Assembly (NCBI RefSeq): GCF_016406085.1 | Contig: NZ_JAEHFJ010000003.1 | Location: forward strand, 436,288 to 500,287 | Origin: Aureibaculum flavum | GTDB lineage: Bacteria; Bacteroidota; Bacteroidia; Flavobacteriales; Flavobacteriaceae | Direction of reading: 5' to 3' | DNA length: 64,000 nucleotides | Shown: positions 3,389 through 47,640 of the stretch, piece by piece | Layout: each line of letters starts with the position of its first letter | How positions within the stretch are numbered: position 1 is the first letter of the stretch | Notes under the pieces: generated by a model | What the model saw: the letters and a program-made list of their open reading frames with translations, nothing else | Databases searched by the model: none | What the model was told of the DNA's origin: nothing | Program-made: the position numbers and the translations under genes

Positions 3389-6300
3389 CTAATTATCAGG
3401 ATTGACAGATTCGTTAGTTTCAGCTTCTTTCTTCTTAATTTTTGAAAGTTCTGATTTGGCTTCATCGGTTACATCTTTATAATCTGAAAAGTTTTTAATC
3501 ACACTTTCTAAAATATAAGTAGCTTGATAAGCATCTTGTAATTCGTAAAAGTTTTTTGCCATTACAATAAGTCCTTTGGCTCCATAATATTTATAAGCAG
3601 AATAATCAGCCACTAATGTTTGCACTGTGGTATTTGACACTTTGTAATTACCCTCTTGATGTTTAAAATAAGCATCGTAATAAATAGACTCGGCTTTTAA
3701 TTCGCCTGTAGCAATTTTACCAACTTCGATATATGCTTCTTCAGCCTTACGTTCATCACCAGTTTTAATAGCAGAACGAGCAATAATTACTTTAGCATCA
3801 GATTTTACTCTATTTTCTAATTTTGGTCTTAATAAAACTTTTTCAGCATAGGCTACAGCAGCATCGTAATTTTCTTGTTCGTAATATCCTTTCATCAAAT
3901 TACTTTGAGCAAAAGTGATGTTTTGAGGAAAATCAGCTTGTTCTTCCAAACGTTTTAAAATGGGCATTGCCTTCGTCCAATTATTAGCTTCTAAATAAGC
4001 TTGAGATAACCTTGATAAAGCTTGTTCAGTAAACTCATTACGTTCTTGATCTGTTACATAATTATAATAGGGTATAGAGGCTGTTTGTTGTTTTTCATTA
4101 AATAGAGCCTCTGCTAGATAGAAATTCGCGTTTAAAGCGTGCCCGCCACTTGGAAATTCTTTCAGATAACTTTTAAATGCTGAAATTGCTTTTTTACGAT
4201 TGTTTAAGAGGTATTGTTTTTCAGCCGATTCGTACATGTCATTATCCAAATCAGAATCTGTTACAGTTACAAAGTCAAGGTCTTTTACCCACGCAGCATA
4301 TTCGTCAACACGACCTAAATCTACATAGATTTGTCGTGCATTTGCAACAGCCTGTTTGGCTTCACCGGTATCAGGAAATTCTTTGACTACACGTCTATAT
4401 TTATCTAAAGCTTCATTATCTCTTTCAATATTATAATAGATTAACCCTTGTTTTAATAAGGCTTTTGGCACATAAGAACTTCTTTTATATTCACTTAAAA
4501 GACTGTTATAAGAAGCTAAGGCAGATTCATTATCATCAGCAACAACATAAGAATTACCCAATTCATAATACACATCATCACGAAGGGTAGATTTAGGATA
4601 CGCTTTTAAAAAGGCATTAAAATCAGCAATTTTAGCATTGTTTTTACGGATAAATCCATAACTCATCGCTCTTTGAAAATGAGCATAATCCCTATCTATA
4701 CCTTTTTTGTTGATAACATTGTTATATGCTGTTATGGCTTTATTATAATTACTAGAAACATAAAATGCATCACCTAAGCGTAAGTAGGCATCGTTAAGTT
4801 TGTTTTCGTCGTCCGGATTGGTGTCAATAAACGACTGAAACTCATCACCAGCACGATTATAATCTTTTAATTTAAAGTAAGAATAGGCAATGTTGTAATC
4901 AATAAATTCATTCTCTGGAAGGCCAGAAGCGTTCATTTTTTGAAATTTTTGAAAACCAGCTAATGCGTCTTTAAAGTTATTTGATAAATAATTAGTCTCT
5001 GCTTTCCAGAAAATGGCTTTTGCTGTAGTTGAGGTGTTTCTAGGACTATCAATAGCAAGGTCAAAATAAGTCAATGCATCATCATAATCTCCATCATTAA
5101 ATAATTGAATTCCTCTGTATAAAGCTACTTTTTGATATAAATCTTTATGATGTGCCTCGTTTTTACCCTTTAATGCAACTAAAGCACCAGCATAATCTTT
5201 AGAAGAAATATAAGCACTAATTAGTAATTCACCAATTTCATCTTTGGCGGTAGATTTTGGATACAGGTCTAAATATTCTTGCAACACATCAGGTACACTC
5301 TTATAAGGATTACCTATTTCATAACTCAGTTTAGCATAGTTTAACCAAGCATCTTTTTTAATATCCTCATTGAATTCCATTTGCGAGGCATTTCTAAAAG
5401 CATTTAGAGCTTCAGTTTTAAGATCCGTTTTCAAATAACACTCTGCTAAATGGTAATACGCATTTTGTGATACAGAATTTTCTCCACCAATAATTTTATT
5501 AAAATTAGCGATTGCATTTTCATAATCGTTTTGTTTGTAATAGGCATAACCTAATAAATAATAATCTGTATTATTCCATTTACGACGTTTCCCTTTGTAA
5601 TTTTTTAGATGCGGTATGGCTTCAGCATATTTATTAAGGTTAAAATAACTTTCACCAATAATTTTTGAAATTTCTGATCGCTCGTTTACATCCGCTTTTT
5701 TAAGAAATGGTTCTGCAACATCAATAGCTTCTTGAAACTGTCCTGTTTTAAATTTGATATTTGCCATGTAGTATGGTACATCATCACCTAATTCTTTGTC
5801 ATTAGCAACTTCGCCTAAATAACGATCAGCGTTGTCATAATCATCATCTTGATAAGCGATAAATCCGTAGTAATATTTCGCTTGAGAGCCATATTCTTGA
5901 GAAGTCAATAATTTTTGAAAAATACCTTTGGCTTGTTCATAGCTTTTCACTGCAAATAGACCATAAGCATATTTAAAATTAAAATCTTCTTCTTGCTTTA
6001 TAGATAGGTTACGCGTTTCTACACGTTTGTACCATTTTAGGGCATAAGGATAGTTGGCATTTTTAAAATAATAATCGCCAACCTCTAAAAATGCCGTATT
6101 TTGTTTGGTACTTGTAGGAAAACGTTCAACAAATTTTAGCATCATTTTGTCGCCATCGCGTTCGCCAATTTGAATGGCACTGAATGCTTCATAATAAGCA
6201 CAATTGGCTTTATACTCAGAAATATCGTCAAAATCAGATTTTAAAGAATTAAATTGGTGCTTGGCAGCAACAAAATCTCTGTTGTTATATAAGTCAACAG

Positions 6301-6412
6301 CATGATTGTAGGCCGTTAAATTGTGCGTATAAATTTCTGTTTTTTGAGCAAAGCTAGAAGCTGAGCAAATAAAAACTATGGTGGCGAGAAGCCAATTTTG
6401 GCAATGCTTCAT
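3389..6412 (-). CDS. Giant periplasmic tetratricopeptide-repeat protein
   Basis: 1007 residues from the preferred start (MKHCQNWLL...), which begins with a signal peptide ending SSFAQ; a longer in-frame start 22 codons upstream adds a hydrophobic segment that does not fit an export signal. The mature protein is TPR-like helical hairpins from end to end, with recurring motifs of the type AxxxYNxxI, YxLGxxYxxxxxYxxAIxxF and A-x-Y-x-L-A-E. No catalytic domain is seen. TPR proteins of this size act as assembly scaffolds in the periplasm. The outer-membrane barrel gene follows in the same direction, so the two probably form an envelope complex. Confidence 0.8.
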   Translation of the reverse strand: MKHCQNWLLATIVFICSASSFAQKTEIYTHNLTAYNHAVDLYNNRDFVAAKHQFNSLKSDFDDISEYKANCAYYEAFSAIQIGERDGDKMMLKFVERFPTSTKQNTAFLEVGDYYFKNANYPYALKWYKRVETRNLSIKQEEDFNFKYAYGLFAVKSYEQAKGIFQKLLTSQEYGSQAKYYYGFIAYQDDDYDNADRYLGEVANDKELGDDVPYYMANIKFKTGQFQEAIDVAEPFLKKADVNERSEISKIIGESYFNLNKYAEAIPHLKNYKGKRRKWNNTDYYLLGYAYYKQNDYENAIANFNKIIGGENSVSQNAYYHLAECYLKTDLKTEALNAFRNASQMEFNEDIKKDAWLNYAKLSYEIGNPYKSVPDVLQEYLDLYPKSTAKDEIGELLISAYISSKDYAGALVALKGKNEAHHKDLYQKVALYRGIQLFNDGDYDDALTYFDLAIDSPRNTSTTAKAIFWKAETNYLSNNFKDALAGFQKFQKMNASGLPENEFIDYNIAYSYFKLKDYNRAGDEFQSFIDTNPDDENKLNDAYLRLGDAFYVSSNYNKAITAYNNVINKKGIDRDYAHFQRAMSYGFIRKNNAKIADFNAFLKAYPKSTLRDDVYYELGNSYVVADDNESALASYNSLLSEYKRSSYVPKALLKQGLIYYNIERDNEALDKYRRVVKEFPDTGEAKQAVANARQIYVDLGRVDEYAAWVKDLDFVTVTDSDLDNDMYESAEKQYLLNNRKKAISAFKSYLKEFPSGGHALNANFYLAEALFNEKQQTASIPYYNYVTDQERNEFTEQALSRLSQAYLEANNWTKAMPILKRLEEQADFPQNITFAQSNLMKGYYEQENYDAAVAYAEKVLLRPKLENRVKSDAKVIIARSAIKTGDERKAEEAYIEVGKIATGELKAESIYYDAYFKHQEGNYKVSNTTVQTLVADYSAYKYYGAKGLIVMAKNFYELQDAYQATYILESVIKNFSDYKDVTDEAKSELSKIKKKEAETNESVNPDN

Positions 6413-6702
6413 TGTGGTGAATTGTTTAAAAAATAATTCGTAATAAATATCAAAAATAACACACTCTAAGTTAAACAACGTGCAAATTATTCTAAATTGT
6501 ATAATTGTTAATTAATATAACATTTTGTTAACTAAATGTGTTAAAATTCATTATCAAATGGCAAAAATTGAGCCAAAATGATCTAAGTTAAATCATAAAT
6601 ATATTTTCTAATCGTTATTTTAGGGACTTTGGTAAAATCACTTCACACCTTAAACATTCAATTTTATTCCCTAAATTTGTCAAGCAAAATAATTACAAAT
6701 CC

Positions 6703-7380
6703 ATGTCCGAGCAAAAACCGGTATTACATTTAAAGAATGCCTTTATTTTTCAACAAGAAAATTTAATATTATCTGATATTAGTTTAGATATTTATAGAGG
6801 TGATTTTATGTATTTAATTGGAAAAACGGGGAGTGGTAAAAGTAGTTTGATGAAAACCTTATATGGCGACTTACCCTTAACACAAGGTGAGGGAGATATT
6901 GTAGATTTTGATTTGATAAAATTAAAAGAAAAGGAGATACCTTTCCTTAGAAGAAAATTGGGTGTTGTATTTCAAGATTTTAGGCTACTTAATGATAGAA
7001 ATGTACATGATAATTTACTTTTTGTATTGAAAGCTACGGGTTGGAAAGATTCTTCTAAATGCAAATCTAAAATTGATGAGGTTTTAGAAAAAGTAGGGAT
7101 GAGAACCAAAGGGTTTAAAATGCCTTTTCAACTTTCTGGTGGTGAGCAACAACGTGTGGCAATTGCTAGAGCGTTATTAAATGATCCTGAATTGATTTTA
7201 GCTGATGAGCCGACGGGTAATTTAGATCCGAAAACCTCTTTGGAGGTAATGAGCGTTCTGGAGGAAATTAATAAAGAAGGTAAAACCATATTGATGGCTA
7301 CACATGATTATGCTTTAATTTTAAAATATCCTCATAAAACCATTAAATGTGATGGTGAAAAGGTTTTTGAAGTGGTTTAG
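6703..7380 (+). CDS. ftsE: FtsE-type ABC transporter ATP-binding protein
   Basis: A 225-residue ABC ATPase with Walker [10 protein letters not shown] (residues about 39-47), Q-loop FQDFRLL, signature [15 protein letters not shown] and Walker [11 protein letters not shown] followed by the H-loop histidine in ATHD. Length and sequence fit FtsE, the ATPase that with FtsX drives peptidoglycan hydrolase activation at the division septum. No ftsX lies beside it; solitary ftsE genes are common in Bacteroidetes. A TAnnTTTG -7 box lies at 6672-6679, 24 bp before the start. The stop codon overlaps the end of the convergent glycosyltransferase gene by four bases. Assignment as FtsE rather than another LolD/FtsE-type ATPase rests on overall resemblance. 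Confidence 0.8.
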
Positions 7381-39814: not shown

Positions 39815-40390
39815 TTATAGTTTAGCGTAATAGTATTCTTCTGTAAATTTAATAGGTATAGAAACTCTTGTTTTGTCCCATGCAAGTACCATGTTGGCAT
39901 TTTCGTTAATTCTTTTAAATCCGATAGAAAAAACGGATAAGCGTTCTGCTTTTTTTACAGGCACTTTGATCTGAGCAACATTTGTGGAAGGATTATACTG
40001 AAAAGCACCCCAAGTATCTACTTCACTATTTAGTATTATTTCCCATTCTGTCTCACCAGGAATGGTTAATAATACATAGGTTCCTGCTTGAACTAAGGTT
40101 TCCCCGAAATAAATATCTTTATAAAACTTTACTTCTGTAGCTTCATTGGCTCCAGTTCTCCAAATATTACCATATGAAATTTGATCTGTAAGTTGTTCTT
40201 TATCATCTTTTAAAGATGGTCTTCCATATATTACTTTGGCCATTGGAGTTGATACTTTTGAAGCTCTTAAATATGCAATATCTTGTGGAGCTTCATCTAA
40301 TTTTTGAAAATCTTGAGCAGCGATTGTTGTAGTAAACAGTATTATGATCATTGTGATACTGGCGATTGTTAACTTGGTAATTTTCTTCAT
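39815..40390 (-). CDS. DUF2911 family exported protein
   Basis: 191 residues with a signal peptide (residues 1-26, ending IAAQ). The body matches the DUF2911 family: ASKVSTPMAKVIYGRPSLK, GNIWRTGANEATEVKFYKD and LVQAGTYVLLTIPGETEWEIILN. DUF2911 proteins are widespread in Bacteroidetes and have no known activity; their fold is predicted to be a beta-sandwich. An ECF-type promoter motif lies 63-91 bp upstream, identical in form to the one ahead of the FecR-like gene at 42497, so this gene is probably part of that sigma factor's regulon. Confidence 0.88.
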   Translation of the reverse strand: MKKITKLTIASITMIIILFTTTIAAQDFQKLDEAPQDIAYLRASKVSTPMAKVIYGRPSLKDDKEQLTDQISYGNIWRTGANEATEVKFYKDIYFGETLVQAGTYVLLTIPGETEWEIILNSEVDTWGAFQYNPSTNVAQIKVPVKKAERLSVFSIGFKRINENANMVLAWDKTRVSIPIKFTEEYYYAKL

Positions 40391-40452: not shown

Positions 40453-40485
40453 TAAAAACAACTAGAACTTGAATAGTCCTGAAAA
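40453..40485 (-). promoter_or_regulatory. ECF sigma promoter motif (copy A) for the DUF2911 gene
   Basis: Minus strand: TTTTCAGGA ending at 40477, 15 bases, then TTGTTTTTA at 40461-40453. Transcription would begin near 40446 and give a 5' leader of about 55 bases. The two blocks and their spacing equal those of copies B and C exactly. Confidence 0.7.
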
Positions 40486-40554
40486 AAAATGATTTATTTT
40501 AATTTTCTTTATAAATACAGCATTGGTGATAAGGTTATTATTACTTTTTTTATA

Positions 40555-40646
40555 AAAATAAAGCACCCTTTTGAAAAGGATGCCTTATGAACTCTGATAT
40601 GAAAAAAAATAAAATGCGTCTGCGTTAAATTGTTTTGCAGACTCCC
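40555..40646 (-). ncRNA. Putative ECF-controlled small RNA of about 90 nt
   Basis: Downstream of promoter motif copy B lies a short stretch with no usable start codon on the minus strand. It contains a 6-bp hairpin (40637-40642 with 40618-40623) and ends in a terminator (40563-40583). It is isolated on both sides: the lipoprotein gene's terminator lies upstream of its promoter, and promoter copy A of the next gene lies downstream of its end. That is the layout of an independent small RNA. The 5' end is estimated from the -10-like block. Confidence 0.5.
40563..40583 (-). terminator. Terminator of the putative small RNA
   Basis: GCATCCTTTT and AAAAGGGTGC (minus strand, 40583-40574 and 40572-40563) pair over ten positions with one G-U, and TTTATTTTTAT follows. 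The central base leaves a tight loop, so in practice a few pairs will open. Confidence 0.7.
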
Positions 40647-40652
40647 CTACAG

Positions 40653-40685
40653 TAAAAACAATCGTGTCTTTAAATATCCTGAAAA
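40653..40685 (-). promoter_or_regulatory. ECF sigma promoter motif (copy B) for the putative small RNA
   Basis: Minus strand: TTTTCAGGA ending at 40677, 15 bases, then TTGTTTTTA at 40661-40653. No protein-coding gene follows; the transcript would run into the hairpin and terminator of the putative small RNA. Confidence 0.65.
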
Positions 40686-40702
40686 AAAGTTATTTATAAA
40701 AA

Positions 40703-40730
40703 AAAACATCCCCTTTCAAGGGGATGTTTT
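40703..40730 (-). terminator. Terminator after the repeat lipoprotein gene
   Basis: A 13-bp perfect stem, AAAACATCCCCTT (40703-40715) with AAGGGGATGTTTT (40718-40730), flanked by A- and T-rich runs. It lies 24 bases beyond the stop codon of the minus-strand lipoprotein gene. Confidence 0.85.
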
Positions 40731-40753
40731 GAAGTTTTATGTGGTTTTAATTA

Positions 40754-41833
40754 CTAATTACATGCACTTTCAAATCGCAGCCGATCATCATCATCTTTAA
40801 AGTCAATTCTATTTTGTCCGGTAACTAAATCAATCTCCGTTAAGGTCCAAATATTAGAAATTTCTACCAAGCCTGGAATAGCTATATTTAATTCTATATC
40901 TTGTCCCGTACCCACAGCGGTCCAGGTTCCCGTGAATAATGGTAATGGTATGGCTAGCAAAGTAACAGTAACAGTGCCATTGGTTGCAAAGTTAAATTGG
41001 TATAGTGGATATAGCAAGTCTAAATTTAATGAATTGAGGGTTAATCGATTTATCTTCCAATCATCACAGCCCGTTAACAAGTCTTTAAATTCTTGTAATT
41101 CACATGCTATACAATCATCATCATTATAGTCATAATCATCATCTTCATCGCATATATCTATTGATGAGGTAATTTCAGTTTCTAGTTCTTGCATTGAATT
41201 TGTAGTAATTTCGGTATCATCGCTGCGAATTACAACAACGGGAAATTCAATATTGGATATATCATCAGATTTAAAATCTTCTATAAAATCAAATAATTCT
41301 CGATCATTTTGTAGTTCATCTTTGTCAAATTGTTCGGTAACGGTATTGTAAGTTGAAACTGTAATTGGAAAAACAAAATCTACACATTCAATATCTTGAT
41401 CTATTTCATTTTCACCTTGACAAGTACTTGCAAGAGCATCAAATTGACTCTGATCGTTAAGGGTTACTTCTTTAAAATCTTCTTGAGTTACTGTTATCGG
41501 AAATTGAATTTGCATTGTATCAGCGTCATCATCATGATCATCAAATATATTTTCAACGGTTTCAAAATCATCTGCTGAATTTACGATAACCTGAATGCCA
41601 TTGGCAAACACTGTAATAGGAAATTGTATAGATAAACAATTTGCTTTGTCTATAATGTTATCGAACGAACCATCTTTAAGGGTGGTACGTTTCATTAAAC
41701 CCGCTAGATTTGAATCAGCGGTAAAAGAAGATTCATTTGGACCAGGAATCAAAACTGATTCTTCGTTTCTACAGGAAATCAAAATTAATAATCCTAAGAG
41801 TAATAATTTGGTAGTTTTTATCGTTTGCTTCAT
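40754..41833 (-). CDS. Acidic lipoprotein with four FPITV repeats
   Basis: 359 residues from MKQTIKTT...; the longer frame starts inside the promoter motif and is rejected. Lipobox LISC. The middle holds four repeats of roughly 40-60 residues, each opening with a strand of the form xIxFPITV (SIQFPITVF, QIQFPITVT, VFPITVS, IEFPVVV) and ending in an acidic helix. Aspartate clusters (DDHDDDAD, DEDDDYDYNDDD) suggest cation binding. The last 110 residues resemble a lipocalin-like beta domain. I know no function. It is divergent from the ECF sigma gene and has promoter motif copy D, so it belongs to that signalling locus, perhaps as a surface ligand or partner of the receptor. Confidence 0.75.
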   Translation of the reverse strand: MKQTIKTTKLLLLGLLILISCRNEESVLIPGPNESSFTADSNLAGLMKRTTLKDGSFDNIIDKANCLSIQFPITVFANGIQVIVNSADDFETVENIFDDHDDDADTMQIQFPITVTQEDFKEVTLNDQSQFDALASTCQGENEIDQDIECVDFVFPITVSTYNTVTEQFDKDELQNDRELFDFIEDFKSDDISNIEFPVVVIRSDDTEITTNSMQELETEITSSIDICDEDDDYDYNDDDCIACELQEFKDLLTGCDDWKINRLTLNSLNLDLLYPLYQFNFATNGTVTVTLLAIPLPLFTGTWTAVGTGQDIELNIAIPGLVEISNIWTLTEIDLVTGQNRIDFKDDDDRLRFESACN

Positions 41834-41870
41834 TGTGCAATATAAATTGTTAATACTATTGTATACATAG

Positions 41871-41902
41871 TAAAACAATTAAACGTAAAAAACTCCTGAA
41901 AA
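41871..41902 (-). promoter_or_regulatory. ECF sigma promoter motif (copy D) for the repeat lipoprotein gene
   Basis: Minus strand: TTTTCAGGA ending at 41894, 15 bases, then TTGTTTTA at 41878-41871 (one T fewer than the other copies). It lies 38-69 bp before the chosen start codon and about 32 bp from the divergent sigma gene. Confidence 0.65.
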
Positions 41903-41933
41903 TTTTTACTTATAATTTATAAATAGATAATTT

Positions 41934-42446
41934 ATGACCCAAAACAAGTCTGTATGTGATGAAAGTGTTTTTGCTTCTATTTATAATTCATATGCTAAAG
42001 ACCTTCATAATTACCTTTATTATAAATATGGTGATCGTTATGACCCAAACGATACTGTGCAAGAAGCTTTTGTTAAATTATGGAACAATTGTAAAGAAGT
42101 AACGATTGAAAAAGCGAAAGGTTTCGTTTTTATGGTATCGAAAAACATGATGTTAAACGAAATAAAACATCAAAAGGTAGTTTTAAAACATCAACAAGTA
42201 AAGCCAAAGGATTACACCAATGAAAATCCGGAGTTTATCTTAGAAAAAGAACAATTCTATAAAAAATATCAACGTGCGTTAGCGAAGTTGACAGAAGACC
42301 AACGGGTTGCTTTTTTACTATGCAAAACGGAAGGCAAAAAGCATCAAGAAATAGCCGATATGCTTAATATTACCAAGAAGGTTGCTGAATACAGAATTTA
42401 TACGGCCTTTAATATTATTAAAGCTGAAATAAAAGAATTAAATTAA
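41934..42446 (+). CDS. ECF sigma factor, FecI-like
   Basis: 170 residues with the two sigma-70 regions of an ECF factor: region 2 (YNSYAKDLHNYLYYKYGDRYDPNDTVQEAFVKLW, about 15-50) and region 4 (LTEDQRVAFLLCKTEGKKHQEIADMLNITKKVAEYRI, about 115-155), whose helix-turn-helix reads the -35 element. Neither anti-sigma nor receptor motifs are fused to it. It is followed after 50 bp by the FecR-like gene, with a promoter motif between them. It therefore appears to be made first from its own promoter, and the rest of the locus is then activated through it. Confidence 0.92.
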   Translation: MTQNKSVCDESVFASIYNSYAKDLHNYLYYKYGDRYDPNDTVQEAFVKLWNNCKEVTIEKAKGFVFMVSKNMMLNEIKHQKVVLKHQQVKPKDYTNENPEFILEKEQFYKKYQRALAKLTEDQRVAFLLCKTEGKKHQEIADMLNITKKVAEYRIYTAFNIIKAEIKELN

Positions 42447-42454
42447 TTGATATT

Positions 42455-42487
42455 TTTTCAGGACTTTTATAAACTTTATTGTTTTTA
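42455..42487 (+). promoter_or_regulatory. ECF sigma promoter motif (copy C) for the FecR-receptor pair
   Basis: TTTTCAGGA ending at 42463, 15 bases, then TTGTTTTTA at 42479-42487. The motif ends only ten bases before the ATG at 42497, so the transcript would be almost leaderless, or translation starts at the second ATG (42506). Confidence 0.7.
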
Positions 42488-42496
42488 AGTAAATAA

Positions 42497-43417
42497 ATGA
42501 ATTTAATGAACCAAGAAGAATTATTAAAAAAATGGTTATCAAATGATCTGACCGACGCCGAACTGAAAGAGTTTGAGCGGTCAGAAGATTATGTGCTACA
42601 TACTGAAATTATTGAAGGAGCTCAGCAATTTAAAGCTTCTAATTTTACGAAAACAAGATCTTTTAATGAGTTTAAGGCAATACGTGATGGGCAAAAAAAA
42701 TCTAAAGTAGTACGTCTTAGTACTCGTAAAATTTTAATGAGGGTTGCTGCGATACTTATTATTAGTTTGGGATTGTTTTTTGCATTTTTTAATAATAAAT
42801 CGACTACAATTAAAACACTTGCCAGTCAAAAACAAACCTTTGAATTACCGGATGCTTCTACCGTAATATTAAATAATCTTTCTACAATTAGCTACAATAA
42901 AAAGAGTTGGAACGAGAAAAGAGAATTAAGGCTAAAGGGTGAAGCTTTTTTTAAGGTGGCTAAAGGTTCTAAGTTTGATGTAATTACAAGTGCCGGTGTT
43001 GTTTCTGTACACGGTACACAATTTACTGTGAACCAGCGTGATGGATTTTTTGAGGTTCAATGTTTTGAAGGAGTTGTACAGGTAGAAAGTGATGCCTTTA
43101 ATCAAGTGTTAACGATTGGTAAATCATTGAGAATTCGTAACGGTGAACTATCTTTAGATGAGGTTTCGCAAAGCGAACCTTCTTGGATTACGAATAAAAG
43201 CACGTTTAAAAGCATTCCTTTAATTGAAGTACTGAATGAATTAGAACGACAATTTGCCGTCAAAATTACCGTTAAGAATATTGATACGGATCAATTATTT
43301 ACGGGTGGCTTTACCCATTTAAACCTTGAACAGGCACTTCAATCTGTCACGAGTTCTTTTAACTTGAAGTATACGAAAGAAGGACCGGCTAAAATTTTGT
43401 TATATAAGAGTGAATAA
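42497..43417 (+). CDS. FecR-type anti-sigma factor
   Basis: 306 residues; an ATG at 42506 is an alternative start. The cytoplasmic N-terminal 75 residues should hold the sigma factor. One membrane helix follows (about 77-95, RVAAILIISLGLFFAFF), then a periplasmic FecR domain (LPDASTVILNNLSTISYNKKSWNEKRELRLKGEAFFKVAKG) and a DUF4974 domain (IPLIEVLNELERQFAVKITVKNI) that contacts the receptor's signalling domain. It transmits the substrate-loaded state of the outer-membrane receptor to the sigma factor. The receptor gene overlaps its end by eight bases. Confidence 0.92.
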   Translation: MNLMNQEELLKKWLSNDLTDAELKEFERSEDYVLHTEIIEGAQQFKASNFTKTRSFNEFKAIRDGQKKSKVVRLSTRKILMRVAAILIISLGLFFAFFNNKSTTIKTLASQKQTFELPDASTVILNNLSTISYNKKSWNEKRELRLKGEAFFKVAKGSKFDVITSAGVVSVHGTQFTVNQRDGFFEVQCFEGVVQVESDAFNQVLTIGKSLRIRNGELSLDEVSQSEPSWITNKSTFKSIPLIEVLNELERQFAVKITVKNIDTDQLFTGGFTHLNLEQALQSVTSSFNLKYTKEGPAKILLYKSE

Positions 43418-45920
43418 ATTAAAATGCTTTGTACTTGTAATTTACCTTTTCAACGGCTCCTTATTGTTTTCACAAGACAATAATGAAAAAAAACCGCTCG
43501 TTGAAATATTAGTAGACTTACAAGGGCGTTTTAATTACGAATTCACTTATGCAGATCAGATTGTAAAAAACATTTTTATTATAACTCCTGACCCTAAATT
43601 AAATCTAAAAGAGGCCGTTGAATATCTTCACGAAAAAACGGGACTAGAATTTAGGTTTCTTGATGGCAATTATATAGTCATTAATAAAATGAATACGGCT
43701 TTTAATATTTGTGGATTTTTAATCGATCAAGTTGATCAAACGCCAATAGCTTCTGCTTCTATAATTGGTGATGCAGACGCTACAATCTCAGATGCAAAAG
43801 GGTTCTTTAGTTTAGCTGTTGAAGACAAAAATGAAATCATAGACATTCGTCATTTAAGTTATGCACCCTTAATCTTCACATCGGGTGATTTTAATACGAA
43901 AGCCTGCGACACCATAAAGCTTAGTCTTCAAAATGAATCTTTAGACGAAATAGTGTTGGCACATTTTATTGCCAAGGGTATTAATAAACTTGCCGACGGA
44001 AGCATGCAAATTAATTTTAAAAATTTCGATCTTGTTCCGGGCTTAATAGAAACGGATGTGTTACAGACGGTACAAGCTTTACCAGGTGTTCAAAGTGCTG
44101 ATGAAACGGTTTCTAATATTAATATTCGCGGAGGAACAAATGCGGAAAATCTACTCTTGTGGGATGGTATAAAGATGTATCAATCTGGACACTTTTTCGG
44201 ATTAATTTCGGTGTTTAATCCTTTAATTACATCAAAGGTGTCCTTGATAAAAAATGGAACAGGCGTTGATTATACGGATGGGGTTTCAGGAACCATTCTA
44301 ATGAATACGGACGATAAAATAACTGATAAATTTACTGGGAGCGTGGGATCTAATTTCACAAATGCTAATGTTTTTATTGATGTACCGGTTGGTGCAAAGT
44401 CTTCCGTTCAAATTGCAGCCAGAAAAGCGATAAATGACTTTGTTGAAACGCCCACATATACTTCTTATTTTGATAGGGTATTACAAGATAGTGAAGTTGA
44501 GAATAATAATAAGCAGGTAGCACATTCCGGAATTTCATTTGATTTTTATGATACCTCCATAAGGTGGCTGTACCGTCCTAGTTCAAAAGATGTAATTCGG
44601 TTTAACTTTATAAAAGTAAATAATGAATTGATTTTTAATGAAAGTGCGGAACAAAATCAACAAACGACTTCTCGTGAGAGCCGATTGATTCAAAACACAA
44701 CATCAGAAGGATTGTACTATCAGAGAGATTGGTCTCATAAATTTAAAACTAGTCTTCAAATTTATGAGACTGATTACCGTCTCAATGCGATTAATGTAGA
44801 TGTTTTAGAAAATCAGCGTTTAGAACAAGAAAACAAGGTTTCAGAGTCTTCATTAAAATTAAAAACAACATATATTTCAAGTCCACAATGGTCTTTTATT
44901 AATGGTTATCAATTTATAGAATCAGGCATCTCCAATCTTACCGATGTTGATGATCCTAGGTTTTTAACTTTAGAAACAGAGGTAATTCGTGAGCATGCGG
45001 TTTTTTCTGCTGTAAATTTTAGTTCTGAATCAAGGAACACTCAAATAAAAGGAGGGTTGAGATATACCTATGTAGAAAAATTTAAAAAGCATTTAATAGA
45101 ACCTAGAATTTCTATTAATCAGCGATTTGCAGACTATTTTTCCTTGGAAATTGCAGGAGAATTAAAACATCAAAACACCTCTCAAATTATTAATTTTCAA
45201 AATGACTTTTTAGGGGTTGAAAAAAGAAGATGGCGTCTGTCAAACCAAGAAGAAGTTCCAATTATTCAAAGTAAACAAGCTTCTCTAGGGCTCAGTTTTT
45301 CAAATAGAGGCTGGTTGATTAGTGCAACTGGATATCATAAAAATGTAGATCAAATTACGTCGCAGAGTCAAGGTTTTTTAGGACCTCATATTTATGATCA
45401 ATCGATAGGCTCCTATAGTGTCAATGGTTTAGACGTTCTGATAAATAAACGAATAAAAAGAATCAGTAGTTGGTTGAGCTATTCGTATGGCAAAAACACG
45501 TATACTTTTGACGAATTTATTCCTTCAAAATTTCCAAATAACGTTGATGTAACGCATGCAGTAACGCTAGGATCTACTTTTTCTGCAGCAAACTTTAAAT
45601 TTTCAGCTGGTCTTAACTACTATACTGGTAAACCCACTACACGTCCAATCGGAAACCAACAGGTGGAAGAAAATACTATTCAATATGAAACTACCAATAG
45701 TAGTCGCCTTGAAGACTATTTGCGATTAGATGCATCTGCAGTTTATGAATTTAAAATTATTTCAGGAATCCAAGCTAAAGCTGGGGTTTCGGTCTTAAAT
45801 GTTTTGAATCAAGAAAATGAAATCTCCAATTTTTATCGTGTACGAGATAACGAAATTGAAAAAGGAACTAAAAAGGCTTTGGCCTTTACTCCAAATGCTG
45901 TGTTCAGTATATTGTTTTAG
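43410..45920 (+). CDS. FecA-like signalling TonB-dependent receptor
   Basis: 836 residues. After the signal peptide (ending LLFSQ) comes an STN signalling domain (about 28-95, LVEILVDLQGRFNYEFTYADQIV...LEFRFLDGNYIVINK), then a carboxypeptidase-D-like domain (about 100-180), a plug (VLQTVQALPGVQSADETVSNINIRGGTNAENLLLWDGIKMY) and a barrel ending in FSILF. The STN domain marks it as a transducer that signals through FecR. Unlike SusC it has no SusD partner; the repeat lipoprotein divergent from the sigma gene is the only candidate surface partner. The substrate cannot be read from sequence. Confidence 0.92.
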   Translation: MNKLKCFVLVIYLFNGSLLFSQDNNEKKPLVEILVDLQGRFNYEFTYADQIVKNIFIITPDPKLNLKEAVEYLHEKTGLEFRFLDGNYIVINKMNTAFNICGFLIDQVDQTPIASASIIGDADATISDAKGFFSLAVEDKNEIIDIRHLSYAPLIFTSGDFNTKACDTIKLSLQNESLDEIVLAHFIAKGINKLADGSMQINFKNFDLVPGLIETDVLQTVQALPGVQSADETVSNINIRGGTNAENLLLWDGIKMYQSGHFFGLISVFNPLITSKVSLIKNGTGVDYTDGVSGTILMNTDDKITDKFTGSVGSNFTNANVFIDVPVGAKSSVQIAARKAINDFVETPTYTSYFDRVLQDSEVENNNKQVAHSGISFDFYDTSIRWLYRPSSKDVIRFNFIKVNNELIFNESAEQNQQTTSRESRLIQNTTSEGLYYQRDWSHKFKTSLQIYETDYRLNAINVDVLENQRLEQENKVSESSLKLKTTYISSPQWSFINGYQFIESGISNLTDVDDPRFLTLETEVIREHAVFSAVNFSSESRNTQIKGGLRYTYVEKFKKHLIEPRISINQRFADYFSLEIAGELKHQNTSQIINFQNDFLGVEKRRWRLSNQEEVPIIQSKQASLGLSFSNRGWLISATGYHKNVDQITSQSQGFLGPHIYDQSIGSYSVNGLDVLINKRIKRISSWLSYSYGKNTYTFDEFIPSKFPNNVDVTHAVTLGSTFSAANFKFSAGLNYYTGKPTTRPIGNQQVEENTIQYETTNSSRLEDYLRLDASAVYEFKIISGIQAKAGVSVLNVLNQENEISNFYRVRDNEIEKGTKKALAFTPNAVFSILF

Positions 45921-46185: not shown

Positions 46186-46323
46186 GTACAACTAATGCAA
46201 CAGTGCTATTCTTGCCAGCCCTTATTTTTTCGTAAATATAACAACAAACTCAATGATACAAATATATATTTGAAATTAATTAGTTTTTTATAAATTGATT
46301 TAGGTTGCATTTGTTTGCTATTC

Positions 46324-46357
46324 ACCGTACAAATACCGTACAATTGTATTATATTTG
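46324..46357 (+). promoter_or_regulatory. Integrase promoter region with ACCGTACAA direct repeats
   Basis: ACCGTACAA occurs at 46324-46332 and 46335-46343, eleven bases apart, directly before a TATATTTG -7 box (46350-46357) and 21 bp from the integrase start. Helical-turn spacing suggests a repressor or integrase/Xis site controlling the integrase gene. Confidence 0.45.
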
Positions 46358-46377
46358 TATTGCAAATTAAAAATAAT

Positions 46378-47640
46378 ATGGCATCAATTAATTTTTTATA
46401 CCGTTCTACAAAGAATAAAGCCGATTTAGTGTTACGCTTATTATATCGTAGTAATGAAAAAGATTATGTCTTTGGAGTAAAAACGAAACTAGAAGTAACA
46501 AAGGAATATTGGAAAAAGCATCATCGTTCAAGTCGTCTTAAAGATATTGATATTATTAATAAGCAAACGTTGGTAAAGAGCGAACTCAATAGAATAGAGA
46601 ATCATATATTAAGTTCTTTTAAAGGTATAGATTCTGAGTTTGTTAATAAGAGTTGGCTTGAAGCTCAAGTTAATCAATTTTATAACCCTATCGATAGAAC
46701 CGAATTTCCGACTGATTTGATTAATTATATAGATAAGTACATTGAGGTAAAGCAAACTGAGGTAACAAAAAGCTCCTTGAAAAAATTTAGAGTTATCAAG
46801 CGTAAATTAGAGAGATTTCAAAATTATAGATATAATATCATCTTAATAAAAGAGGTTGACCTCAATTTTAAAGCTGAATTTGAAAAATATTGTATATCTG
46901 AGCAGTATGCACCTAATACTATAGCGAGAGATTTACGCTTTATTAAAACCATTTGTAATCACGCCAAATATAATGGTCTCGAAACGAGTTATCAGTTAGA
47001 AAAAATAAAAGCTAAATACCAAAAGGTTGATAGTATTTATTTAACGGAAGTTGAAATTCAAAAGATAGAAAGCGTTTCTGCACTACCTGATCACTTAGAG
47101 AATGCAAAAGATTGGCTAATTATTAGTTGTTATACTGGTCAAAGAGTATCTGATTTTATGCGTTTTAATAAAAGTATGGTACGTATGGAAAAGAACAAGG
47201 AGGGCGTACTAAAACCTTTGATTGAGTTTTCTCAAAAGAAAACAGGCAAACTGATGACCGTTCCTTTGTCTCAAAAGGTCGTTGAAATTCTTAATAAAAG
47301 AAATGGAGAGTTTCCCCGTTCAATATCGGAGCAAAAGTATAACGTATATATTAAAGAGGTATGTAAACTAGCACAACTAAATAAAAAAGTTAAGGGTAGT
47401 AAAAAAGTAAAAATTTCACCTACTAGTAAAAAATACCGAAAAGAAATTGGTATCTATCAAAAATGGGAGCTTGTTACTAGCCATATTGGAAGACGCTCTT
47501 TTGCTACAAATCATTATGGTAAAATACCAACTTCATTTTTGATTTATATAACAGGACACAGTACGGAAGCAATGTTTTTAAGTTACATCGGTAAAAGCAA
47601 TAAGGACATTGCTATGGAATTAACTAATTATTTAAACTAA
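46378..47640 (+). CDS. Tyrosine recombinase (island integrase)
   Basis: 420 residues from MASINFLY..., the usual opening of Bacteroidetes integrases; the longer frame runs through the promoter box. An N-terminal arm-binding domain (SINFLYRSTKNKADLVLRLLY) is followed by a SAM-like core-binding domain (about 110-210) and the catalytic domain with R256 (YTGQRVSDF), H369-x-x-R372 (HIGRRS), H394 (TGHS) and nucleophile Y403. All catalytic residues are present. It sits 192 bp inside attL, so it should catalyse integration and excision at ssrA. Confidence 0.92.
   Translation: MASINFLYRSTKNKADLVLRLLYRSNEKDYVFGVKTKLEVTKEYWKKHHRSSRLKDIDIINKQTLVKSELNRIENHILSSFKGIDSEFVNKSWLEAQVNQFYNPIDRTEFPTDLINYIDKYIEVKQTEVTKSSLKKFRVIKRKLERFQNYRYNIILIKEVDLNFKAEFEKYCISEQYAPNTIARDLRFIKTICNHAKYNGLETSYQLEKIKAKYQKVDSIYLTEVEIQKIESVSALPDHLENAKDWLIISCYTGQRVSDFMRFNKSMVRMEKNKEGVLKPLIEFSQKKTGKLMTVPLSQKVVEILNKRNGEFPRSISEQKYNVYIKEVCKLAQLNKKVKGSKKVKISPTSKKYRKEIGIYQKWELVTSHIGRRSFATNHYGKIPTSFLIYITGHSTEAMFLSYIGKSNKDIAMELTNYLN

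Follow-up and report, generated by a model that had tools for sequence, protein, structure and literature searches.

Four exact copies of a two-block signal, CAGGA-N15-TTGTTTT, lie around an ECF sigma factor gene (41934-42446) in the window, the 64,000-nucleotide stretch of Aureibaculum flavum DNA analysed here, and many related marine bacteria carry this signal next to the same genes at an identical spacing. The four copies look like start signals; what they would switch on is a surface receptor, a lipoprotein and a secreted protein, together with a probable small RNA. The motif is very probably the -35/-10 promoter recognised by the adjacent sigma factor. Bacteroidetes have many ECF sigma factors whose promoters are, to our knowledge, mostly unknown, so that their regulons cannot be predicted.

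Results

Four copies of the motif surround the sigma gene

Scanning the window placed the motif at 40455-40481, 40655-40681 and 41872-41898 on the minus strand and at 42459-42485 on the plus strand. Only 0.02 copies are expected, and none of 100 shuffled sequences reached four, which bears out the observation with which the sequence-only reading had begun. TTTT directly precedes CAGGA at all four sites. The final A of TTGTTTTA, taken in that reading as part of the signal, had to be given up: it is present at one site, T standing at the other three, and what follows TTGTT is variable. The signal rests on exactness, since the 32-mer with up to three mismatches occurs four times in the window where 1.55 are expected, a number equalled or exceeded in 8 of 100 shuffles and so not significant.

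In the whole 4.75-Mb genome the exact motif occurs nine times, five of them intergenic (the four window sites and C1:554431) and four within ORFs, and the exact 31-base form, TTTTCAGGA-N15-TTGTTTT, is confined to the four window sites. Inexact matches genome-wide are mostly background: 80 for the short form with at most one mismatch, against 36 for the reversed pattern, and 408 for the 31-mer with at most three, against 262.

Each site preceding a protein gene is at promoter distance and correctly oriented, as had been proposed, at 64 nt from the DUF2911 ATG, 38 nt from the lipoprotein ATG, and 11 nt from the first FecR ATG (42497) or 20 nt from the ATG that agrees with homologous FecR starts, which is the start adopted in the table.

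Features of the locus, in window coordinates
Feature	Position	Strand	Basis
Site F, putative -35/-10 promoter in the sigma-FecR gap, toward fecR and the receptor gene	42455..42486	+	Exact motif; kept at spacing 15
Site L, putative promoter of the FPITV-repeat lipoprotein	41871..41902	-	Exact motif; kept at spacing 15
Site S, putative promoter of the candidate small RNA	40654..40685	-	Exact motif; also in G199 and G206
Site D, putative promoter of the DUF2911 gene	40454..40485	-	Exact motif; comparable site in congeners
Candidate sigma-dependent small RNA of about 95 nt, with putative ends	40553..40648	-	Site S at 5' side, terminator at 3' side
Intrinsic-terminator-like hairpin, 3' end of the candidate small RNA	40558..40588	-	
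Terminator-like hairpin, 3' of the lipoprotein gene, before site S	40703..40730	-	
ECF sigma factor of 170 aa, with Y153 in region 4.2	41934..42446	+	Pfam Sigma70_r2, Sigma70_r4_2
FecR-like sigma regulator	42506..43417	+	Pfam FecR, FecR_C
TonB-dependent receptor, probably also signal transducer	43410..45920	+	Pfam Plug above cut-off
FPITV-repeat lipoprotein, divergent from sigma	40754..41833	-	Without Pfam or NCBIfam match
DUF2911 protein, regulon candidate	39815..40390	-	Pfam DUF2911

Proteins of the module

Both sigma domains score above their Pfam cut-offs within 170 aa, as in ECF factors, and the protein reaches 71.6 bits against TIGR02937 (sigma70-ECF; cut-off 42.9); its top-scoring NCBIfam family, TIGR02985 (Sig70_bacteroi1), stays below the cut-off at 97.8 bits (126.4 needed). 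The protein that follows has both FecR domains above the Pfam cut-off. Residues 27-91 of the receptor give a FecR_C-like match below the cut-off, and Pfam finds no STN domain in it.

Homologues of the lipoprotein are present in 136 of the 199 family genomes sampled. Its predicted model (mean pLDDT 82.8, pTM 0.54) has no PDB match at E ≤0.001; the C-terminal part is weakly lipocalin-like (best match 4qrl, E 9.1e-3), and a profile search gave one short match at E 0.001. Having only this weak likeness of one part, from which no ligand can be named, we set aside the assignment of a function from structure.

Position, orientation and spacing are kept in relatives

The same intergenic regions were compared at 59 loci with the lipoprotein/sigma-FecR-receptor module, a non-random sample, nearly all being best-scoring lipoprotein matches, that overlaps a further set of named loci. 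FecR follows sigma in 58 of the 59, across a gap of 32-901 nt; L122 ends there and, having no FecR match, does not enter the gap counts. With a query refined after inspection of these same loci, the lipoprotein site lies at exactly 15-base spacing in 59/59 loci and the gap site in 56/58; the reverse strand reaches the score in 9/59 and 6/58, at scattered spacings, and shuffled sequence in 11/59 and 8/58. The unrefined query, CAGGA/TTGTTWTA, already placed the best lipoprotein site at 15 in 55 of 59. Among the named loci, counted without L342, which has no sigma, spacing 15 is found for the lipoprotein site in 76 of 79 and for the gap site in 78 of 79; the best lipoprotein site is not at 15 in L273, L334 and L341, nor the best gap site in L288. 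Blocks, spacing and position persist where the lipoproteins are merely 34-46% identical, and in 26 of the 31 loci of the CAGG class the -35 block begins 1 nt past the sigma stop codon, facing fecR. An ECF promoter would be expected to show such a near-constant spacing of two blocks, together with promoter distance and sense orientation.

We also scanned 37 genomes, picked because they carry the module or as congeners, and found 60 sites of TCAGGA-N15-TTGTTNTA against two for the reversed control; together with the confinement of the exact 31-mer to this locus, this answers the concern that the motif might be as frequent elsewhere as before genes. Forty-three of the 60 are module sites, and the other 17 comprise 13 intergenic sites and four in ORFs. 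The genus pattern, applied to the congeners other than our own genome, G202, G204 and G207, gave no site in any of the four searched that lack the lipoprotein; of those with it, G203 and G205 have none and G208 one.

Upstream of sigma on its own strand the motif is found at 1/59 loci, and sigma autoregulation is therefore not supported. The full string TAnnTTTG does occur upstream of sigma in 15/59 loci, against 2.6 in shuffles.

The -35 block follows sigma residue 153

The -35 block takes clade-specific forms, CAGGA, GTAGG and TGGGA, and 57 of 59 loci, among them the one in the window, have the same class at both sites; the remaining two differ by one base at the lipoprotein site. Over 139 rows, in which at least six genomes appear twice, residue 153 is Y in 101/103 of the CAGG class, K in 26/26 of the GTAG class and H in 10/10 of the TGGG class. 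The two H153 exceptions in the CAGG class have CGGGA, so that G stands at -35 position 2 in all 12 H rows; in two Y153 rows, L300 and L335, the gap site reads CGGGA. On the tree the link amounts to three changes, and the independent pairs, which agree in 2/2 cases for H and 1/1 for K, are too few for significance. Residues 150 and 153 align with T168 and T171 of SigW, which in the solved complex, as its report describes in the part consulted, contact A-34 (PMC6713349). The -35 block thus appears to covary with the very residue expected to read it.

The one close sigma paralogue in the genome has K at the position of residue 153, with GTAGG sites around it, and so appears to use GTAGG, not CAGGA, in the same cell. 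Of six GTAGG sites inspected in this genome, one falls inside an ORF; for three, no ORF of ≥70 aa begins in the 400 nt that follow.

The putative regulon and a candidate small RNA

That the regulon extends beyond the receptor is upheld by sites kept in congeners at two further genes. DUF2911 has a comparable site 37-64 nt upstream in five of the six congeners examined, and an unlinked outer-membrane protein (OMP), 59% identical in G206, keeps a diverged form of the site there.

Site S had been placed before a gene-free stretch. The site itself stands, and "gene-free" probably does not: a conserved stretch of about 95 nt follows, ending in a terminator-like hairpin (40588-40558), with 94% identity in G199 and 78% in G206. 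Putative promoter, discrete body, terminator and conservation thus occur together in our own genome and in two of 16 congeners. Rfam gave no match at gathering score over the candidate; its five matches at E ≤1 are all below gathering and none falls there. Site S therefore probably drives a small RNA, whose existence and role we infer from this arrangement. Site S, about 264 nt ahead of DUF2911 and in its orientation, might simply be a second, distal promoter of that gene, with transcription running through the hairpin and no small RNA made; the terminator-like hairpin lies between the two, and the stretch that runs from TAGGGGAGTCTG up to it is 78% kept in G206, where DUF2911 is 53% identical, and we consider this reading rather unlikely.

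Other readings of the motif

A dimeric DNA-binding protein would also fit two conserved blocks held a fixed distance apart, and the motif could be an operator through which an unlinked transcription factor co-regulates the module. Yet the blocks are not mirror images, their orientation to the gene is fixed, one covaries with a sigma residue that in the alignment matches a -34 contact in SigW, and the other contains the TGTT reported near the -10 of ECF-linked promoters of B. thetaiotaomicron; an operator is very unlikely. We rejected a short dispersed repeat with no regulatory role as extremely improbable: the sites at 40455 and 40655 are 200 bases apart and in G213 tandem gene copies each carry a site, as duplication might leave them, but the 15 filler bases differ among the four sites, as the sequence-only reading had argued against recent duplication, and the footprint spans the family even where lipoprotein identity is low.

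Read in the opposite direction the sites become AAAACAA-N15-TCCTGAAAA, which presumably also resembles an ECF promoter and which at 41872 would lead into the sigma gene. The other three sites would then read into gene ends or antisense, against the placing of the CAGG-class -35 block just past the sigma stop, facing fecR, and against the intergenic distal sites, which mostly lie upstream of genes in the forward sense; we give this reading hardly any credence. The motif as a -35/-10 pair of the FecI-type sigma, read toward fecR, the lipoprotein and DUF2911, is supported by its conserved position, orientation and spacing and by the covariation of the -35 block with residue 153.

Discussion

Transcription, the signalling steps and insulation between circuits are what we infer from motif, spacing, position, orientation, conservation and covariation, each directly observed. 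An external ligand would be sensed by the TonB-dependent receptor and the signal passed through FecR to activate sigma; polymerase carrying it would read CAGGA via region 4.2 and TTGTT via region 2. The transcribed genes would be fecR-receptor, the lipoprotein, DUF2911, the probable small RNA of about 95 nt and one or more unlinked genes for an outer-membrane beta-barrel. Sigma would not be its own target while the FecR-receptor operon would be, so that activation would raise regulator and sensor together, and use of GTAGG by the paralogous sigma would keep the two circuits apart. We give an even chance to a wider proposal, in which paralogous Flavobacteriaceae FecI-type sigmas are insulated by residue 153 (Y, K or H, with V or A at 150) selecting CAGGA, GTAGG or TGGGA, the 15-base spacer being constant and the -10 containing TGTT, and in which the sigma of this genus also controls a small RNA of its own, perhaps as a post-transcriptional repressor arm.

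With a fixed spacer and a -35 code that can be read, regulons would become predictable in any genome carrying the module, and engineering would gain paired orthogonal promoters. Residue 153 becomes a named, testable candidate for a specificity residue, and a widespread unnamed lipoprotein family would be tied to a receptor signalling system.

A search of the literature, mostly of non-subscription papers and largely at the level of listings, brought up no paper that we recognised as treating the motif or module, and a literal search within the same limits, combining CAGGA with Bacteroidetes, sigma factor and promoter, gave no papers. The SM6 motif of Flavobacterium psychrophilum, a member of the same family, marks a class of ECF-type promoters mapped through RNA-seq of 5' ends; in the text consulted it has a CGT box, with targets in type IX secretion, unlike the present motif, and the strings CAGGA, TAGGA, GTAGG, TTGTT and TGTTATA are absent from that paper's main text, logos and supplements aside (PMC9723704). 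In B. thetaiotaomicron, promoter motif 2 (PM2) and the SigW-1/SigH-1 promoters, with -30/-10 elements ascribed to ECF sigmas, have TGTT near -10 in the published passages compared, a likeness that concerns the -10 part (PMC12596196; PMC7366714); PM2, compared by its text description, is near-palindromic and tied to oxidative stress. SigW of B. subtilis shares the aligned positions that read A-34, and differs, by the same partial source, in reading GAAAC, with R175 at G-35 (PMC6713349); residue 157, aligned with R175, is here mostly S or T, the GTAGG class having G or other residues.

The nearest likeness is to FecI/FecR/FecA cell-surface signalling, in genes for an ECF sigma, a FecR-type regulator and a TonB-dependent receptor lying together. 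In E. coli, by the portion of the source consulted, FecI acts at the fecA promoter and sigma70 controls fecIR (PMC9249621), whereas here the putative sigma promoter sits between sigma and fecR, so that FecR and receptor would both be targets; the divergent lipoprotein, DUF2911, the OMP and the probable small RNA would be added to the regulon; and the -35 is CAGGA, GTAGG or TGGGA. The system is thus known cell-surface signalling in a new variant.

Exact copies of the motif

CAGGA-N15-TTGTTTT occurs four times in the window, against 0.02 expected, and four or more copies appeared in none of 100 shuffles. The sequence-only reading had extended the motif at both ends: the TTTT directly 5' of CAGGA stands in all four copies, whereas the final A is found in the 41871 site only. 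Exactness is the signal, because allowing three mismatches over the 32-mer abolishes significance (4 in the window, 1.55 expected). The 4,754,601-base genome holds nine exact copies, four within ORFs and five intergenic—the window sites and C1:554431. The 31-mer TTTTCAGGA-N15-TTGTTTT matches exactly, genome-wide, only at the four window sites, and with one mismatch at four further places: C1:554427, about 60 nt upstream of an outer-membrane beta-barrel gene, two in ORFs, and one intergenic with no same-strand gene within 400 nt. Inexact genome matches are mostly background (with at most one mismatch the short form has 80 and its reversed control 36; with at most three the 31-mer has 408 against 262).

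Features of the locus in the window
Feature	Position	Strand	Basis
CAGGA-N15-TTGTTTT, site D (before DUF2911)	40455-40481	-	exact match
CAGGA-N15-TTGTTTT, site S	40655-40681	-	exact match
CAGGA-N15-TTGTTTT, site L (before lipoprotein)	41872-41898	-	exact match
CAGGA-N15-TTGTTTT, site F (before fecR)	42459-42485	+	exact match
ECF sigma gene	41934-42446	+	Sigma70_r2, Sigma70_r4_2
Hairpin after lipoprotein gene, before site S	40730-40703	-	position relative to gene and site
Terminator-like hairpin 3' of site S	40588-40558	-	position relative to site

The module and its sites across the family

On the plus strand the sigma gene is succeeded by genes for a FecR protein and then a TonB-dependent receptor; the gene for the FPITV-repeat lipoprotein diverges from the sigma gene, with DUF2911 on its far side. 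The lipoprotein has no match in Pfam or NCBIfam, and the resemblance of its C-terminal part to lipocalin-like Bacteroides proteins is only weak. Placement of the sites at promoter distance, as originally proposed, was borne out: site D lies 64 nt upstream of DUF2911, site L precedes the lipoprotein ATG by 38 nt, and site F precedes the first FecR ATG by 11 nt, or by 20 nt when counted to the second ATG (42506), where FecR homologues start. Shortly 3' of the receptor gene lies a tyrosine recombinase (46315-47640; Phage_int_SAM_5, Phage_integrase); a mobile element may have inserted beside the module.

Lipoprotein homologues are present in 136 of 199 family genomes. We fetched 59 loci, nearly all best-scoring lipoprotein matches: the lipoprotein adjoins sigma in every one, and FecR is downstream of sigma in 58, the remaining locus (L122) ending at that point. 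With a first query, CAGGA/TTGTTWTA, the best match before the lipoprotein had spacing 15 in 55/59 loci. A second, YAGGA/YTGTTWTA, refined on the same 59 loci with spacings of 11-19 permitted, scored at least 11/13 before all 59 lipoprotein genes, always at spacing 15, and in 57 of 58 sigma-FecR gaps, 56 of these at spacing 15; reverse-strand controls gave 9/59 and 6/58, with scattered spacings, and shuffled sequences 11/59 and 8/58. Among 80 named loci, which overlap the first set (sigma present in 79), spacing 15 was best at 76/79 lipoprotein and 78/79 gap sites. Loci L243, L244 and L427 and our genome's own contig C5 (L245) have two or three tandem gap sites, not one.

The -35 block and sigma residue 153

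The second block retains TGTT (as TTGTT or, for some of the GTAGG class, CTGTT), while the first is CAGGA (or AAGGA), GTAGG or TGGGA. Within a locus the two sites share a -35 class in 57/59 cases, the window included; in the exceptions, L093 and L109, the lipoprotein site differs by one base. The gap site of the CAGG class has its -35 block starting 1 nt past the sigma stop codon in 26/31 loci; in the GTAGG class the sigma-FecR gap is longer and the site close to fecR.

Among 139 sigma sequences, partly non-independent in that at least six genomes are present twice (zero-length branches being among the signs), residue 153 is Y in 101/103 of the CAGG class, K in 26/26 of GTAG and H in 10/10 of TGGG. 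The two H153 exceptions in the CAGG class (L311, L334) have CGGGA, so that the second -35 base is G in all 12 H rows; against this, Y153 rows L300 and L335 have a CGGGA gap site, yet CAGGA before the lipoprotein. Residue 153 is one of several alignment columns separating the classes, most of which may be merely ancestry markers. A sigma tree from which residues 144-161 were omitted shows the class changing three times, and the independent pairs agree (H 2/2, K 1/1), too few for a test.

A probable second sigma circuit

The only close paralogue of the sigma in this genome is on C5 (61% identical; the other ten matches, 18-25%). It has K at the position of residue 153; its sigma-FecR gap carries two GTAGG sites, with a third upstream on the opposite strand. 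The genome holds 11 copies of GTAGG-N17-TGTTNTA (reversed control, 3); six GTAGG sites read in context were five intergenic, two of them at most 150 nt before a gene, and one in an ORF. GGTAGG-N17-TGTTNTAT has 68 sites in 25 of 29 genomes searched (control, 5). This GTAGG/K pattern is what would be expected of paralogous circuits with putative insulation. L245 and L246 (contig C35) have in common an element of ~45 bases around GTGAAACATAAAGTAAACTTTT...AGTCCCTAAAAAGAAACATTT, located downstream of GTAGG-type sites in stretches free of genes; it may represent a family of candidate RNAs of the second sigma.

Sites beyond the receptor

In 37 genomes, chosen as module carriers or congeners, TCAGGA-N15-TTGTTNTA was found at 60 sites in 31 (reversed control, 2). 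By position 43 are module sites; the other 17 comprise 13 intergenic sites and four that fall inside ORFs, of which two are no more than 15 nt from the earliest possible start. The intergenic ones precede genes for CHRD proteins (two genomes), DUF4382, DUF2490, Fib_succ_major and others, including a protein DUF4382-like by eye without Pfam match; some have no nearby gene. TTTCAGGA-N15-TTGTTTTTA, at up to one mismatch in 13 congeners, gave 32 sites in total (control, 2): 3-9 in each of six module-bearing genomes, none in four lacking a lipoprotein match; three fragmented genomes with the lipoprotein yielded 0, 0 and 1.

The proposal that the regulon reaches beyond the receptor is upheld by sites 37-64 nt before the DUF2911 ATG in five congeners (G199, G206 with CGGGA, G211, G212 and G213; the site nearest to the G209 gene is at 190 nt) and by a diverged site 25 nt before the unlinked outer-membrane protein in G206, the proteins being 59% identical. 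The sigma gene itself is predicted not to be a target, because the motif lies upstream on its strand in only 1/59 loci and the complete housekeeping -7 consensus TAnnTTTG in 15/59, against 2.6 in shuffles.

Other arrangements were seen among the relatives. L427 (G213; 5453-6960) has three tandem copies, ~753 bases apart, of a gene for a 133-aa secreted-looking protein, each with its own CAGGA-type site 44 nt upstream (second block TTGTCTTT). L428 (G199) has two divergently reading CAGGA/TAGGA-type sites, at 5158 and 5433, one ~209 nt upstream of the gene for a secreted-looking protein of 1368 aa, the other lacking any gene within 300 nt. In L247 and L257 only short same-strand open frames follow (~50-65 codons by eye), perhaps small peptides. 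A CAGGA site at G206 C11:266152 (L258), just 3' of a DUF2911-like gene and beside another sigma gene, has no same-strand gene for ~3 kb—possibly a second candidate small RNA, or cross-talk.

A candidate small RNA at site S

The hairpins flanking the site S region leave ~95 nt for a candidate small RNA. G199 matches its body at 94% identity and G206 at 78%, and G206 retains the 5' stretch TAGGGGAGTCTG, a GTCT/AGAC pairing and the terminator; the best match in other genus genomes is 19 bases (E 0.0075), and an Rfam search gave no match at gathering score. E. coli sigma-E drives repressor RNAs; by analogy, and speculatively, this RNA might reduce outer-membrane protein synthesis. The small RNA, like the transcription start sites and signalling steps, we infer from sequence.

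Comparison with known systems

Literature searched by topic and motif string yielded no recognised description of motif or module, which is not proof of absence. The closest kind is the FecI-type signalling already described in PMC9249621, and the sigma-FecR-receptor order here is of that type. TGTT near -10 is reported for ECF-linked promoters of B. thetaiotaomicron (PMC12596196, PMC7366714), and likewise stands in the second block here. The mapped ECF promoter class of F. psychrophilum carries a CGT box (PMC9723704), whereas the present motif joins CAGGA, GTAGG or TGGGA to a TGTT block; the main text of that paper contains none of the strings CAGGA, TAGGA, GTAGG, TTGTT and TGTTATA. Residue 153 was chosen from the class comparison before the SigW structure was looked up; in an ungapped C-terminal alignment to 5wuq, residues 153 and 150 are the counterparts of T171 and T168 of B. 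subtilis SigW, two residues that PMC6713349 reports as interacting with A-34 in the solved structure of the SigW/-35 complex.
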